Shown in pieces: positions 9,426 to 19,272 of a stretch of DNA of 64,000 nucleotides. The notes below the pieces were generated by a model, which worked only from the letters and a program-made list of their open reading frames with translations, did not search any database and was not told where the DNA came from. A program made the position numbers and the translations under genes. Numbering within the stretch: position 1 is the stretch's first letter; every line of letters begins with the position of its first letter. This DNA comes from Actinomycetota bacterium (lineage in GTDB: Bacteria > Actinomycetota > Thermoleophilia > Gaiellales > Gaiellaceae), in the NCBI GenBank assembly GCA_003162055.1, contig PMNA01000017.1, positions 1 through 64,000 of the forward strand, in the 5' to 3' direction.

Positions 9426-9860
9426 CTAGGTCGGATAGACGATCAGCTCGAGCAGGTTGCCGTCGGGGTCGCGGAAGTAGATGCTCGTGCCGGTCCCCCG
9501 CGCCCCCTCGCGCTCCAGCGGCCCCAGCTCCACTTCGACGCCGTTTCGCCACAGGTGCTCCAGCGCCTCGTCGATCGTGCCCGGCCAGACGAGACAGAGG
9601 TCGCTCGCACCGGGCCCGGCCGGAATCTTCGCCTTCGGCTCCGCCAGCTCCGAGCCCGGGCCATGCACGTTCAGCTGCTGCTCGCCGAAGCGATAGGCAA
9701 CGCGCCCTCGCTTGAGCTCGACGACCTCGGCGCGCAGCACCTCGGCGTAGAAGCGGTTCGAGCGCTCGAAATCGGAGACGGCGATGACGACGTGATCGAT
9801 GCTGGGCTGCTTCACGCCGAAAAGCGAGTAGAGCCAACCCGGCGGATCAAAGTTGCCCAC
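9426..9860 (-). CDS. VOC family protein (glyoxalase/dioxygenase-like)
   Basis: DHVVIAVSDFERSNRFYAEVL, YFRDPDGNLLELIVYPT. Confidence 0.9.
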   Translation of the reverse strand: MGNFDPPGWLYSLFGVKQPSIDHVVIAVSDFERSNRFYAEVLRAEVVELKRGRVAYRFGEQQLNVHGPGSELAEPKAKIPAGPGASDLCLVWPGTIDEALEHLWRNGVEVELGPLEREGARGTGTSIYFRDPDGNLLELIVYPT

Positions 9861-10761
9861 GCCAGGGCACGAGCAGGCGGTCGACCAGTTTGATCATCGC
9901 ATCGAGAAGAAGGCCGCAAGTCCCGATCACGATGATGCCGAGGATCACCACGTCGGTCTGGAGAAAACGCTGCGCGTTCAGAACCATGGCGCCGATCCCC
10001 GGCATGCCATTGAAGATCTCAGCTGCGACCATCGTCGTAAACGCGAATCCGACCGCGACTCGGATGCCGGTAATCACCTCCGGCAGCACCGACGGGAAGA
10101 GGCCGTGCCGGACGACCTGCATGCGCGAGGCGCCGAGCGTGAGCAGCGCCAGCAGTCGATCCTGCTGGACGTTGCGCACGGCGTCGGCAGTGGCGAGCGT
10201 TATCGGCGGTAACGCAGCTAAAAAGAGGAGGATCACCTTCGGCTCCTCGCCGATCCCGAACCAGATGATGAGCAGCATCAGGTAGGCGAGCGGAGGGAGG
10301 CTCCGAACAACAGTGATGAACGGCTCGAGGACGACCCGCGCCCAGCGGCTGGCGCCGAGCATCAGCCCGAACGGAACACCGATCACGATGGCGATTCCCG
10401 AACCGAGGAGGATCCGCCTCATGCTGGCCCACACGAGCTGCCAGAGGTAATAGCCGCCGTAGCCGTGGGTACCGTCGTGAACGGTCACCGTCAGGATGAA
10501 CTTGTGCCAGACGGCGGAGGGCGTGGGCACGAAGTAGCGCGGCCAGATCTCCAGGCGCGCGACCAGCCACCAGGCTCCGAACACCGCGAAGATCAGGCCT
10601 ATTCGAACCAGCGCGATGCCCCAGCGCTGCCAGAAGCTCGACCGCGGAACCTCCGCGTCGATCTTCTCCGCGAGGAGCGCGCGAGACGATGCCTGGCTCG
10701 CACTGTCTACGACGGGTTGACCTACCGGCCCGGTCGTATGTTCTCCGTCGTCTAGGGCCAT
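9847..10761 (-). CDS. ABC transporter permease, taurine/nitrate/alkylsulfonate type (TauC/SsuC-like)
   Basis: Permease EAA-type loop ALLTLGASRMQVVRHGLFPSVLPEVITGIRVAVGFAFTTMVAAE; ATG at 10761 has SD GAGAGGA. Confidence 0.85.
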   Translation of the reverse strand: MALDDGEHTTGPVGQPVVDSASQASSRALLAEKIDAEVPRSSFWQRWGIALVRIGLIFAVFGAWWLVARLEIWPRYFVPTPSAVWHKFILTVTVHDGTHGYGGYYLWQLVWASMRRILLGSGIAIVIGVPFGLMLGASRWARVVLEPFITVVRSLPPLAYLMLLIIWFGIGEEPKVILLFLAALPPITLATADAVRNVQQDRLLALLTLGASRMQVVRHGLFPSVLPEVITGIRVAVGFAFTTMVAAEIFNGMPGIGAMVLNAQRFLQTDVVILGIIVIGTCGLLLDAMIKLVDRLLVPWRGQL

Positions 10762-10775
10762 CCCGTCCTCTCTCG

Positions 10776-10850
10776 ACGCAGCCAAAGGAACCGCCTCAGC
10801 GGATGAATCCACCCAGTGCATGATGGCGTGCGCCCGTTCATCAGTCAAAG
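10776..10850 (-). repeat. Shared leader element copy 1 (5' leader of TauC-like permease gene)
   Basis: Minus-strand TTGACTGATGAACGGGCGCACGCCATCATGCACTGGGTGGATTCATCCGCTGAGGCGGTTCCTTTG, matches copy 2. Confidence 0.7.
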
Positions 10851-10901
10851 ATGCTTATTAATACTATCGGAATACTTTATGGAGATTCTCCGCCCGTGTC
10901 T

Positions 10902-12332
10902 CTAGCGTTGCTTGAGGGGGACGAGCGCCGCGGGAGCAAGGCCGGCGAGGAAGAGGTCGAGACGCCGCGGCTCGCGGCCGGCGTCCTCGGTCAGCTCTTT
11001 CCTCGCTACGGCAGCTCGCACGCCTCTGCCGCCTAGGTAGCGCGCCGGCTCCGGCGGAAGTCCTCCCGGCCGCCGCACGAGCCCCGAGGCTGCCCACTGG
11101 TCGTCCAGCCCGAGCGTAAGCGAGGCGAGGATGCGCCCGCCGAGGTAACTCGGGCCCACGCCGTTCCCCGAGTAGCCCGCCCCGACGAGGATGGAGTCGT
11201 GACCGCCGAGCGGGCCAAAGAAGGGAAGCCCGACCTTCGAGCGATCAATCGGGCCACGCCAGGAGCTCTCGGCTGTTACGTCGCCGAGGCTCGGGTAAAG
11301 ACGATGGAAGCTGTCCAGCACCCAGCCGGCCCGAGGCGTGGGTCCGTCGTAGCGGGTTCCGATACGGGCGCCGTACGCAAGGCCGCCTGCGCCTCGGCCG
11401 AAGACGATGCGCCCGTCGTGCGTCGAGCGCCAGTAGTTGACCATCAACCGTGAGTCGCTGATACCTACGCCGTCCGGCCAGTCGATGTCACGCAGGCGTT
11501 CGGGGATCGGCGGAGTGGCGATGACGTCGCTCGTTACGACGACAAGCGATCGCCGAAGCTCCGGCAGAGCGGCCACCCACGCGTTCAGCGCGAGCACGAC
11601 TCGCTCCGCACGCACACTCCCGGAGTCGGTGCGCACCAGCGGCGGCCGCGTGCGCTCGAGCCGACGCATCGGCGAGCGCTCGAATAAACGAACTCCGCGC
11701 TCGATTGCGACCCGCCGCAGCCCGCGCGCAAGCGAGGCCGGCTGCACTATCGCAGCCGTCTACTCGAACACCCCGGCGAGGTGCGCGGGCGACGACGCCC
11801 GCCGCACGACCTCTTCTGGCTCGAGCGTAACGAACGGCTCTTCTCCGAGCTCCTCGAGCCGGGTGATCGAATCGTTCCAGGCGCCGATCTGTGCCGGGCT
11901 TGTCGCCGTCCACAACCACCCTTCGTGCCGGAAGTCTGCGGCGATACCGTGTTTTGCGCAGAAAGCGCCGATATCGGCCACCCCTGCGGCAGAGGCGCGG
12001 GCAAGACGCAGCGCCTCCTCGGTGCCGCAGAGCTGCTCAAGCGCCTGGATTTTCGCCCACCAAGATAGGACAAGCCCGCCGTTACGACCACTCGGGCCGC
12101 CGCCGCAGACGTCCGCCTCGATCAGCACGACGTCGAGCGAGGGATCGTGTTCCTTCAGCCGCAGCGCCGTCCAGAGGCCCGTGAAGCCCCCACCGACAAT
12201 GCAGATATCGGCGTGGGCGTCGCCTTCCAAGGCGGGCGCGTCCTCCTCGCCTTCGAGCGCCTCTTCCAACCACAGGTTGCGCGCCCGGCCATCACCAGCC
12301 GGGTCCGAGCTATCCGCCTCGCCGTGAGCCAT
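10902..12332 (-). pseudogene. FAD-dependent DAO-family oxidoreductase interrupted by in-frame TAG at 11760-11762
   Basis: N half ADICIVGGGFTGLWTALRLKEHDP...HLAGVFE, TAG, then same frame TAAIVQPASLARGLRRVAIERGVRLFE...VGAGYSGNGVGPSYLGGRIL. Confidence 0.8.
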
Positions 12333-12349
12333 CGAAAACTCCTTCCCAA

Positions 12350-12424
12350 GCACATTCGAAGAAACCGTCCCAGCGGACGAATCTGCCCGCTGCATGATGG
12401 CGAACGCTCGTTCACACGTCAAGA
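12350..12424 (-). repeat. Shared leader element copy 2 (5' leader of FAD oxidoreductase)
   Basis: Minus-strand TTGACGTGTGAACGAGCGTTCGCCATCATGCAGCGGGCAGATTCGTCCGCTGGGACGGTTTCTTCG. Confidence 0.7.
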
Positions 12425-12511
12425 ATTCTTATATGTATTATGTAATTTCGTTATGTAGGATTGGTTCACATACAAAATCCGGTCTGTGTCAGCTAGCCAA
12501 GAAAGAAGGAG

Positions 12512-13581
12512 TTGTCCATGTTGTCTGCGCGTCTTACAGAACGACGCCTTCGACTCGTGAAGCCAGGCCTTCTGGCTTTCGCTTTCGTCGCAGCGCTCGT
12601 CGCCTTTCCCCTAGCGGCGTACAGCTCGAGCTCGGCCAAACCGAGCTCCGCTCCGTCCCAAATTCGTATCGCCTATCAGCTCATTCCCAACGGCGACTTG
12701 ATCGTCAAAGACAAGCGCTGGCTCGAGAAGGCTTTCCCGAATACGAAGATCAAGTGGTCGCAGTTCGCCTCCGGCGCCGACGTCAATACGGCGGTGGCCG
12801 CGGGCGGCGTCGACATCGGGCTCGCTGGAAGTAGCCCAGTTGCAAAGGGCATCTCCATCGGCCTGAAGTATCGAGTACCGTGGATCTTTGACGTCATCGG
12901 CGCTGCCGAAGCGCTTGTGGCTCGGAACGGAACGGGAATCACAAGCATCTCCGGTCTGGTGGGAAAGAAGGTCGGTACGCCGGTCGGCTCGACCTCGCAC
13001 TACAGCTTGCTCGCTGCCCTGAAGGGGGCCGGTGTAGATCCGACCAAGGTGCAGATCGTCGATCTGCAGCCGCAGGACATCCTCGCGGCCTGGACGCGCG
13101 GCGACATCGACGCCGCCTATGTCTGGAACCCGACGCTCGCCACGATCAAGAAGACCGGGAAGGTGCTGATCACCAGCGCCGTCCTCGCCAAACGCGGCAA
13201 GCTCACGGCCGACCTGGCGATCGTCGCGACAGCGTTCGCGAAGAAGTACCCGAGCGTAGTCCAGACCTGGGTCCAGCAGGAATCGCGCGCGGTCCAGTAC
13301 TTCCGGACGAACCCGAAGAAGGCCGCCGCCTCAATCGCCCGGCAACTCGACATCACGCGTGCCGATGCCCTCTCGCAGGCCAAGCAACTGATCTTCCTGA
13401 ACGCCAGCCAGCAGGCAGGCTCGAAGTACCTCGGGAAACCCGGAGCCGCGGGTGGTCTGGCCGTCAACCTCGCCAGCGCGGCCGCATTCCTGAAGCAGCA
13501 GGGTCAGGTCGACACGGTACCGGCGCTCTCGGTCTTCCGGGCGGCGCTGGCCAACAAGTTCGTCGCCAAGGCCGCTGGCAA

Positions 13582-13585
<4 letters not shown>
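12512..13585 (+). CDS. tauA: ABC transporter substrate-binding protein, taurine/aliphatic sulfonate type (TauA-like)
   Basis: IRIAYQLIPNGDLIVKDKRWLEKAFPNTKIKWSQFASGADVNTAVAAGGVDIGLAGSSP; followed by ATPase with 4-nt overlap. Confidence 0.85.
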
Positions 13586-14487: not shown

Positions 14488-16242
14488 GTGACGTACATGA
14501 CTAGCAGCGAGGCGATGGTCGAGACCCTGAGAGCGGAAGGCATCAGCGAGGTGTTCGGGATAGTCGGCTCCGCCTACATGGACGTGCTCGACCTGTTCCC
14601 CGCGGCGGGCATTCGCTTCGTCGCCGTTCGCCACGAGCAATCGGCCGCGCATATGGCCGACGGCTTTTCGCGAGTAACGGGGCGGCCCAGCGTCTGTATC
14701 GGCCAGAACGGGCCCGGCATCACGAACATGGTGACGAGCATCGCGGCGGCCTACCACGCTCACTCTCCAGTGGTCATCGTCACTCCCTCCGCGATGAGCT
14801 CCGGCCGCGGTCTCGACGGTTTCCAGGAGGTCGACCAGCTCCCGATCTTCAGCACGATCACCAAGTACCAGCTTCAGCTGAGCCGACCCGACCGGATGGC
14901 CGAGGCCTTCCGCACCGCTTTCCGCATCGCGCTCGCCGAGCGAGGGCCGGTGCAGATCGACATCCCGCGCGACTTCTTCTACGCGGAAGGCGATTTCGCG
15001 ATTCTCGAGCCGGATCACTACCGCGTCTCGAACAGAGGCCCGGGAGAGAGCGCGGCGCTCGATCGAGCCGCCGAGATTCTCGCCGCCGCCAAGCGCCCGG
15101 CGATCATCGCCGGCATGGGCGTGACCGAGTCGGCGGCGGCGGACGAGGTTCGCCGGCTCGCCCGTTTGATCGACGCGCCGGTGGCGGCTTCTTATCAGCA
15201 CACCGACGCCTATCCGTTCGATGACGAGCTGGCCGTGGGGCCGATCGGCTATCAGGGCTCGAAGGCGGCGATGGGGCTGCTCTCGAAGGCGGACGTGATC
15301 CTCGCCATCGGCACTCGCGTGAGCGGATTCGGCACTCTGCCACAGTACGGCTTCGACTACTTCCCCAAGACGGCCAAGATCATCCAGATCGAGATTGATC
15401 CGCGCCAGATCGGCCGTGTTCGGCCGTTCGAGGTCGGCATCATCGGCGACGCCAGAGAAGCCGCCGGGGCGATCGCCGATCGCCTACAAGCCTCGCTTAA
15501 GGGGCGCAAGCCCGATCCGTCGCGGCTGACAGAGATCCGCGAAGCCAAGGAAGCCTGGGCGGAGGAGCTCGAGTCGATCTCCTCCTCCGACGCCAGCCCG
15601 ATCAGCCCGCGCCGCGCGGTCGCCGAGTTGGCCCGCGCGCTGCCCGCCGACGCCATCGTCACGAGCGACATCGGGAACATCTGCTCGGTCGCGAACGCCT
15701 ACCTGCGCTTCACAAAGCCCCGCTCGTTCCTGCCGGCGCTCGGCTTCGGTAACTGCGGCTTTGCCTATCCGGCGGCGCTCGGAGCGAAAGTGGCCGCGCC
15801 CGATCGCCCGGTGGTGGCGATCATTGGCGACGGCGCCTGGGGCATGAGCCTGCACGAGGTGATGACCGCCGTCGAGGAGAAGCTGCCGGTCGTCGCCTGC
15901 GTCTTCAACAACCAGGAGTGGGGCGCGGAGAAGAAGAACCAGATCGACTTCTACGACGACCGCTATGTCGGCGCCGACATCGGCCACGGCGTGGGCGGCT
16001 TCAACTTCGCCGAGATAGCCCAGGCCATGGGAGCCCTCGGGGTGCGCGTGACCGACCCGGCCAATCTGCAAGACACCTACAAGGAAGCCCTCGCCGCCGG
16101 CACTCCCGTCGTGATCGAGATCATGGTTGATCCGAAGGAGCTGGCCGAGCCCTTCCGGCGCGACGCGCTGCAGTTCCCCAAGCGCCACCTCGAGCGCTAT
16201 GCGCACCTCGACGAGAGCAATTTCGGAAAGACGGCGGCCTGA
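14488..16242 (+). CDS. xsc: Sulfoacetaldehyde acetyltransferase-like ThDP-dependent enzyme
   Basis: 584 aa; FGIVGSAYMDVLDLFPAAGIRFVAVRHEQSAAHMADGFSR, IGQNGPGITN, GFQEVDQLPIF, SYQHTDAYPFDDELAVGPIGYQGSKAAMGLLSKADVILAIGTR resemble Xsc; ThDP motif GDGAWGMSLHEVMTAVEEKLPVVACVFNN. Confidence 0.8.
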   Translation: MTYMTSSEAMVETLRAEGISEVFGIVGSAYMDVLDLFPAAGIRFVAVRHEQSAAHMADGFSRVTGRPSVCIGQNGPGITNMVTSIAAAYHAHSPVVIVTPSAMSSGRGLDGFQEVDQLPIFSTITKYQLQLSRPDRMAEAFRTAFRIALAERGPVQIDIPRDFFYAEGDFAILEPDHYRVSNRGPGESAALDRAAEILAAAKRPAIIAGMGVTESAAADEVRRLARLIDAPVAASYQHTDAYPFDDELAVGPIGYQGSKAAMGLLSKADVILAIGTRVSGFGTLPQYGFDYFPKTAKIIQIEIDPRQIGRVRPFEVGIIGDAREAAGAIADRLQASLKGRKPDPSRLTEIREAKEAWAEELESISSSDASPISPRRAVAELARALPADAIVTSDIGNICSVANAYLRFTKPRSFLPALGFGNCGFAYPAALGAKVAAPDRPVVAIIGDGAWGMSLHEVMTAVEEKLPVVACVFNNQEWGAEKKNQIDFYDDRYVGADIGHGVGGFNFAEIAQAMGALGVRVTDPANLQDTYKEALAAGTPVVIEIMVDPKELAEPFRRDALQFPKRHLERYAHLDESNFGKTAA

Positions 16243-17734: not shown

Positions 17735-19045
17735 CTAAATCGCCTCCGCCGTCAGCGGCGAGGCGATCGCGAGCGCCTGCTCGAGGTCGGCGACGATGTC
17801 GTCGATGTGCTCGATTCCGACCGAGAGCCGTATGGTGTCCTGGGTTACTCCCGAGGCCGTCAGCTCTTCGTCGTTCAGCTGCGCGTGCGTGGTGGTCGCC
17901 GGATGAATGGCGAGCGACTTGGCGTCGCCGATATTGGCCAGATGGCTGAAGAGCTTCAGGCTCTCGATGAACTGAGTCCCTGCCTCGAGACCGCCCTCAA
18001 TGCCAAAGGTAACGAGGCCGCCGAAGCCACCGTGCAGGATCCTGTCGGCGACCTGCTTGTACGGGCTCGACTCGAGCCCGGGATAGTTGACCCAGGCGAC
18101 GCCTGGATGATTCTCGAGATACTGCGCCACTCGCAGGGCGTTGCTGGAATGACGCTCGATCCTGAGCGGCAGTGTCTCCAGCCCCTGCAGCAAGAGAAAA
18201 GCGTTGAAGGGTGAAAGCGCCGCCCCCGTGTTTCTGAGCAGTACGGTCCTCACCCGGCCGATGTAGGCGGCGGGCCCAAGTGCCTCCGTCCAGACGACAC
18301 CGTGGTAAGAGGGATCCGGCTTGGTCAATCCGGGGAAGCGCTCGGCGTAGACCGTCCAGTCGAACTGCCCCGAGTCGACCACCAGGCCACCGATCGAAGT
18401 GCCGTGCCCCCCGATGTACTTGGTGGCGGAATGCACGGCGATGTCGGCGCCGTACTTGAAGACCGGCGACAGAATGGGCGTCGGAACGGTGTTGTCGACG
18501 ATCAGCGGCAGGCCGAGGGCGTGCGCCTCGTCGGCCCAGGCAGCAAGATCGACGACGTTCAGCTTCGGGTTGCCGATCGTCTCGGCGAAGACGAGTCGCG
18601 TCTTGTCGTCGACCAGTTCGGCCAATCGCTCCGGCTTGTCGGGGTCGGCCCAACGTACTTCGATGCCGTACTGCGGCAGTGTGTGCGCGAACAGGTTGTA
18701 GGTGCCGCCGTAGAGAGTTGAGACCGAGACGATGTTGTCGCCCGCCCTCGTGATGTTCAACACCGCGTAGGTGTTCGCGGCCTGCCCGGAGGCGGTGGCT
18801 AACGCGCCAACCCCTCCTTCCAGGGCTGCCACTCGCTCCTCGAGCACGGCGTTGGTCGGGTTGTTGATCCTCGAATAGATGTTCCCGGGCACCCTGAGCG
18901 CGAACAGGTCAGCCGCGTGCTGGGTGTCGTCGAAAACGTACGAGGTTGTCTGGTAGATCGGGACCGCGCGGGCGCCCGTGGTTGGATCCGGCTCTTGCCC
19001 CGCATGAAGCGCAAGGGTTTCCGGTTGATACTCGCTCACTGTCAC
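17735..19045 (-). CDS. metY: O-acetylhomoserine sulfhydrylase (MetY-like)
   Basis: [60 protein letters not shown], ~436 aa; preceded by SAM-I riboswitch. Confidence 0.92.
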
Positions 19046-19136: not shown

Positions 19137-19272
19137 CACGTCTTCCATCTTCCCGCTCCCCGTCCCGGGACGGAACCGGTTAGCGGCTGGAATTCGCACC
19201 TGGCAAGCAGAAGCTCCGGTTGCGGCGGCGTCGTCGGGCCAGATCCCTCGACCGCTCGTGATGGTTGACGCG
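19137..19272 (-). ncRNA. SAM-I (S-box) riboswitch
   Basis: Minus-strand ...CCATCACGAGCGGTCGAGGGATCTGGCCCGACGACGCCGCCGCAACC...GGTGCGAATTCCAGCC...GATGG; S-box core plus CCATC/GATGG P1 closing. Confidence 0.92.

Follow-up and report, generated by a model that had tools for sequence, protein, structure and literature searches.

The window, by which we mean the whole stretch of 64,000 nucleotides that was analysed, contains a taurine-type sulfonate gene cluster in which tauC is divergent from tauAB (Table 1). On the plus strand, the genes for a TauA-like binding protein, a TauB-like ATPase, sulfoacetaldehyde acetyltransferase (Xsc) and a class III aminotransferase adjoin one another, and the minus strand of the cluster carries the genes for an FAD-dependent oxidoreductase and a TauC-like permease. 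Xsc scored above its NCBIfam cut-off; for the FAD oxidoreductase the nearest NCBIfam model was TIGR03329, with a score below the cut-off of the model. As read from the sequence, the TauA-like gene starts at ATG 12518 and has GGAG as its Shine-Dalgarno (SD) sequence. The locus resembles tauABC/xsc taurine-type clusters in having the TauA-, TauB- and TauC-like genes, Xsc and the class III aminotransferase side by side, but it differs from them in the divergent orientation of tauC, in an additional DAO-family FAD oxidoreductase gene with an in-frame stop, and in that no gene for a GntR-type regulator was detected in its genome. A literature search on taurine promoters with xsc yielded nothing usable.

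The in-frame stop of the FAD oxidoreductase gene is a TAG at 11760-11762 on the minus strand, at codon 191, where a homologue that is 74% identical, in a genome of another genus (G026), has a proline; among the FAD homologues listed, TAG is also present in just one distant gene. Either the gene is decaying or the stop is an assembly error, and the part of the gene downstream of the stop could restart at GTG 11747.

Table 1. Genes, repeat copies and sequence motifs of the tauC-tauA region of the window
Feature	Position	Strand	Remarks
TauC-like ABC permease gene	9847..10761	-	downstream of copy 1; start ATG 10761
Copy 1 of duplicated promoter region	10782..10881	-	before TauC-like permease gene; profile match 96.3 bits
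-10-like hexamer CATCAT, copy 1	10820..10825	-	17-nt spacer; promoter scan
-35-like hexamer TTGACT, copy 1	10843..10848	-	promoter scan
FAD-dependent oxidoreductase gene	10902..12332	-	between both copies; DAO family; start ATG 12332
Copy 2 of duplicated promoter region	12357..12455	-	before FAD oxidoreductase gene; profile match 94.6 bits; gapless alignment to copy 1
-10-like hexamer CATCAT, copy 2	12394..12399	-	17-nt spacer; promoter scan
GAACGAGCGTTC palindrome in promoter spacer	12402..12413	-	copy 2 only; chance-level frequency genome-wide
-35-like hexamer TTGACG, copy 2	12417..12422	-	promoter scan, 9/12 matches together with its -10
TauA-like substrate-binding protein gene	12518..13585	+	divergent from copy 2

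The first-pass annotation had described related sequences of about 70 nt in front of both minus-strand genes, and these do lie at the places given: the best ungapped 62-mer between both upstream regions had 48 identities, whereas none of 30 shuffles gave more than 30. The length, however, had been put too low, as the similarity runs about 33 nt further upstream, to a CATAA. Between this CATAA and a point some 20-25 nt short of the start codons, copy 1 and copy 2 share 71 identities over 100 ungapped columns, and upstream of CATAA we found no similarity between them beyond chance. Thus, the relatedness of the two sequences of about 100 nt is real and far above chance. Copy 2 comprises an upstream ATAA/ATA/ATAAG block, the putative promoter discussed below and the start of the leader. 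A pattern search of the 2.16-Mb genome allowing up to 3 mismatches revealed no third copy. We also considered whether the duplication continues into the first codons of both genes, but the similarity there was only weak (p = 0.03 with the tauC of the window and 0.18 with the tauC of G041) and we do not claim it.

In two genomes of the same genus, G041 and G042, which were the only close relatives in the contig scan, the tauA-like and tauC-like genes are divergent neighbours with no FAD gene and with one copy of the element between them. Only three genomes of the genus hold the locus, and among the genomes of the genus that were searched, none but that of the window had the FAD gene. The sequence that flanks copy 2 upstream and the tauA side in G041 are orthologous (alignment score 66 versus a shuffled mean of 13), as are the tauC start below copy 1 and that of G041. 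Since the sister genomes have a single copy and the flanks are orthologous, the tauA-tauC intergenic region is present twice in the window, as direct copies on either side of the FAD gene. The 74% identical FAD homologue of G026 has unrelated genes around it, and no profile match to the element was found in that genome.

The distribution of the element was followed with a 100-nt profile built from the three close copies (copy 1, copy 2 and that of G041, with G042 left out), which scored 96, 95 and 90 bits on its source copies and 22 bits on the orthologous site of G042. Elsewhere, nothing rose above the background of about 20 bits in 399 genomes of the class, and the picture was the same in 129 genomes of the order. 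A pattern search with 3 mismatches in those 129 genomes of the order identified one true orthologue outside the locus, that of G041; a match with 3 mismatches in G101 was taken as chance. At distant loci with TauC relatives (G190, G006, G303 and others) no clear common upstream element was discernible by eye, and G190, which has the same divergent tauA/tauC pair, carries its own promoter-like sequence upstream. Occurrence in relatives, which had been named as a check on the element, was thus found, with one copy each in G041 and G042, but limited to the tauA-tauC intergenic region of one genus among the 399 class and 129 order genomes.

The xsc gene was compared between the window (14488-16242), L007 (9494-11248) and L048 (3085-4839). 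The xsc of the window is 88% identical to that of G041 at the amino acid level, with a fourfold-site identity of 0.55, and those of G041 and G042 are closer to each other (96%, fourfold 0.79). Unlike xsc, tauA and tauC pair the genome of the window (G000) most closely with G041, and since the xsc distances disagree with this close pair, they suggest that xsc was transferred or replaced within the genus.

A consensus scan of positions 10600-12620 on both strands returned exactly two promoter-like sites, where 0.2 were expected. Both sites lie inside the copies, in identical alignment columns, with the form TTGAC(G/T)-N17-CATCAT, each matching the consensus at 9/12 positions. The G041 copy has TTGACG-N17-CATCAT in register and that of G042 has TTGACA-N17-CAATAT, so that CAATAT is its aligned -10. 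All four copies keep ATAAG-N5-TTGAC-N17/18-CA(T/A)(T/C)AT-GC, with no indel in that part, and the upstream ATAA...ATA...ATAAG block is invariant in position in all four. For comparison, identity at the fourfold-degenerate sites of tauC and tauA amounts to 74-76% for G000 versus G041 and to about 53% for G000 versus G042. The whole element is no better conserved than these sites, and hence selection is visible only at the retained blocks, ATAA/ATA/ATAAG, TTGAC and CA(T/A)(T/C)AT-GC. A conservation that is confined to such blocks is the pattern that would be expected of a promoter.

In its hexamers near TTGACA/TATAAT at a spacing of 16-18 nt, which are kept in the orthologues as the surroundings diverge, the element agrees with a sigma-70-type promoter. 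Like such a housekeeping promoter, TTGAC-N17/18-CATCAT has standard spacing and stands upstream of an SD sequence and a start codon; it differs in its weak -10, where CATCAT matches the consensus at 4/6 positions, and in the additional invariant ATAA...ATA...ATAAG block upstream. This block could be an activator site or a part of the divergent tauA promoter. We assigned the putative promoters by consensus and conservation, and transcription and co-regulation from them appear plausible on these grounds. The earlier view of the sequence as a common element of the two genes is consistent with this, inasmuch as the copies are related, lie at one locus and are likely to confer shared transcriptional control; the sigma-70-type promoter itself had not been named.

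Two other functions had been proposed for the element, a joint operator and a cis-regulatory RNA. That the conserved part is an operator common to both genes, recognised by a dedicated TetR-like or other transcription factor and located in the promoter spacer or in the ATAA/ATAAG block, is unlikely in our judgement. The copy 2 palindrome had been described as having the form of a TetR operator, and its arms, GAACG-ag-CGTTC, are indeed present in the spacer, but they exist in only one of the four copies: 5/6 pairs can form in copy 2, compared with 3/6 in copy 1, 2/6 in G041 and 3/6 in G042. Moreover, GAACG-N2-CGTTC occurs at 6 places in the 2.16 Mb of the genome, close to the about 5.4 that shuffles of the window predict when scaled up to this length. 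Six TetR_N matches were found in the genome, but no TetR gene lies in the window and the nearest one on the same contig is at 241 kb. With the palindrome missing from the other three copies and no regulator gene nearby, the two features by which a TetR-type operator could be recognised are both wanting, and a joint TetR-type operator is not borne out. Nor was a GntR-type regulator found, as would belong to a taurine operon controlled by TauR (GntR/MocR): GntR-domain genes were absent at E <= 0.001 from G000 (2.16 Mb, 93.6% complete), although 12/14 control genomes were positive, and hence, at this completeness of the assembly, there is no TauR-type regulator. What speaks for a protein site is rather the ATAA...ATA...ATAAG block with its fixed position in 4/4 copies, which is a better candidate than the palindrome, unless it belongs to the divergent tauA promoter.

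A cis-regulatory RNA in the 5' leaders, either an attenuator or a small riboswitch, is very unlikely. As an attenuator, the stem CAGCGGGC-AGAUUC-GUCCGCUG of copy 2 would compete with CGUCC-GCUG-GGACG followed by UUUCUU, and copies 1 and 2 do have an 8-pair stem in common (columns 64-71/78-85) that differs between them by one compensatory change (C-G to U-A) and a half change; in addition, the stem of copy 2, together with the T-rich tail that follows it, was called terminator-like. However, terminator-like sites numbered 2 where 1.3 were expected, the 64-71/78-85 stem has 8/8 pairs in copy 2, 7/8 in copy 1 and only 4/8 in G041, and shuffled partners did as well in 390/500 trials. The two end hairpins of the first-pass annotation, CCGC-TGAG-GCGG in copy 1 and CGTCC-GCTG-GGACG in copy 2, are both present, but they pair different columns, 80-83/88-91 and 77-81/86-90 respectively, and are thus not one structure with compensating changes. 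In the three to four sequences available for the covariance check neither of them covaries: they exhibit no two-sided change, and G041 breaks them. Folding energies were at the level of shuffled sequences (z from -1.5 to +1.2), and downstream of the -10, in its 3' half, the G042 copy has only 35-45% identity to the others. Rfam gave no match at the element sites at either gathering or relaxed thresholds. Covarying structure, stability above that of shuffled sequences, and membership of a known family or recurrence at genes of the same pathway were therefore all lacking, and on the three to four sequences compared, the reading as a cis-regulatory RNA for sulfonate genes is not supported.

Elsewhere in the window, Rfam at the gathering threshold gave a single match, a SAM-I riboswitch (RF00162, 69.8 bits) at 19142-19267 on the minus strand, about 7 kb from the element and upstream of a gene for a Cys/Met-metabolism PLP enzyme (17735-19045), where it is an ordinary regulatory RNA of sulfur metabolism. 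It lies on the same strand as the element and is a true cis-regulatory RNA of sulfur metabolism, but the element is unrelated to it in sequence. Inside the FAD gene, on the opposite strand, a eukaryotic IRES family was matched far below its gathering score, which was taken as chance.

It is scarcely credible that the element encodes N-terminal extensions of the two proteins starting from TTG 12422 and TTG 10848. The frames from both TTGs are open and in frame with each gene, and the frame is open in G042 as well; against this, the differences between the copies are spread equally over the codon positions (5, 5 and 5), the frame is not joined to tauC in G041, and each of the two genes has, further downstream, an SD-like sequence with an ATG. 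For the even spread of differences and the unjoined frame in G041, we also discarded a leader peptide.

Taken together with the arrangement in the relatives, the shared sequence is most probably a duplicated sigma-70-type promoter region that flanks an inserted FAD gene. In the arrangement of the sisters, one copy lies in the gap from which the tauA-like and tauC-like genes diverge and would drive tauC. In the lineage of the window, the FAD gene lies inside the tauA-tauC intergenic region with direct copies of the promoter region on both sides; the FAD gene would be driven by copy 2 and tauC by copy 1, and both genes would consequently be transcribed under the same conditions. We infer the transcription start at these sites, the co-expression, and that the copies go back to a duplication and not to an ancestral state from which the relatives lost the FAD gene. 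In a variant that we consider rather doubtful, a lineage-specific sulfonate-gene element, made up of the promoter and a candidate activator site (ATAA...ATA...ATAAG) above the -35, was copied as a unit.

The pairwise identities of the element are 0.71 between copy 1 and copy 2, 0.71 between copy 1 and G041, and 0.68 between copy 2 and G041. Because the identity of the two copies equals that of copy 1 to G041 and is near that of copy 2 to G041, the duplication would date to about the time when the species of the window and that of G041 separated. Duplication with insertion in the lineage of the window fits, and so does an alternative history in which the common ancestor already had the FAD gene with a copy on each side, and the sisters lost this arrangement when the repeats recombined. 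The sites shared with G041 lean toward copy 2 in the upstream half (7:4) and toward copy 1 in the downstream half (2:8); these are small numbers, and the trend would equally arise from selection on either flank.

Under the duplicated promoter reading, the locus is a small and clean case of gene insertion into an existing divergent promoter region, with the promoter on both sides, in which the rearrangement is visible through single-copy relatives, and a false lead, that of a possible new regulatory RNA, is removed. The practical value is limited to the prediction of joint expression of the FAD oxidase and the transporter permease in taurine metabolism. If a promoter/activator unit was indeed copied, an inserted amine- or aminophosphonate-type oxidase would stand under the control of the taurine transporter genes. 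The element is ordinary in kind, and the point that it makes is a modest one, namely how a gene can gain a promoter.
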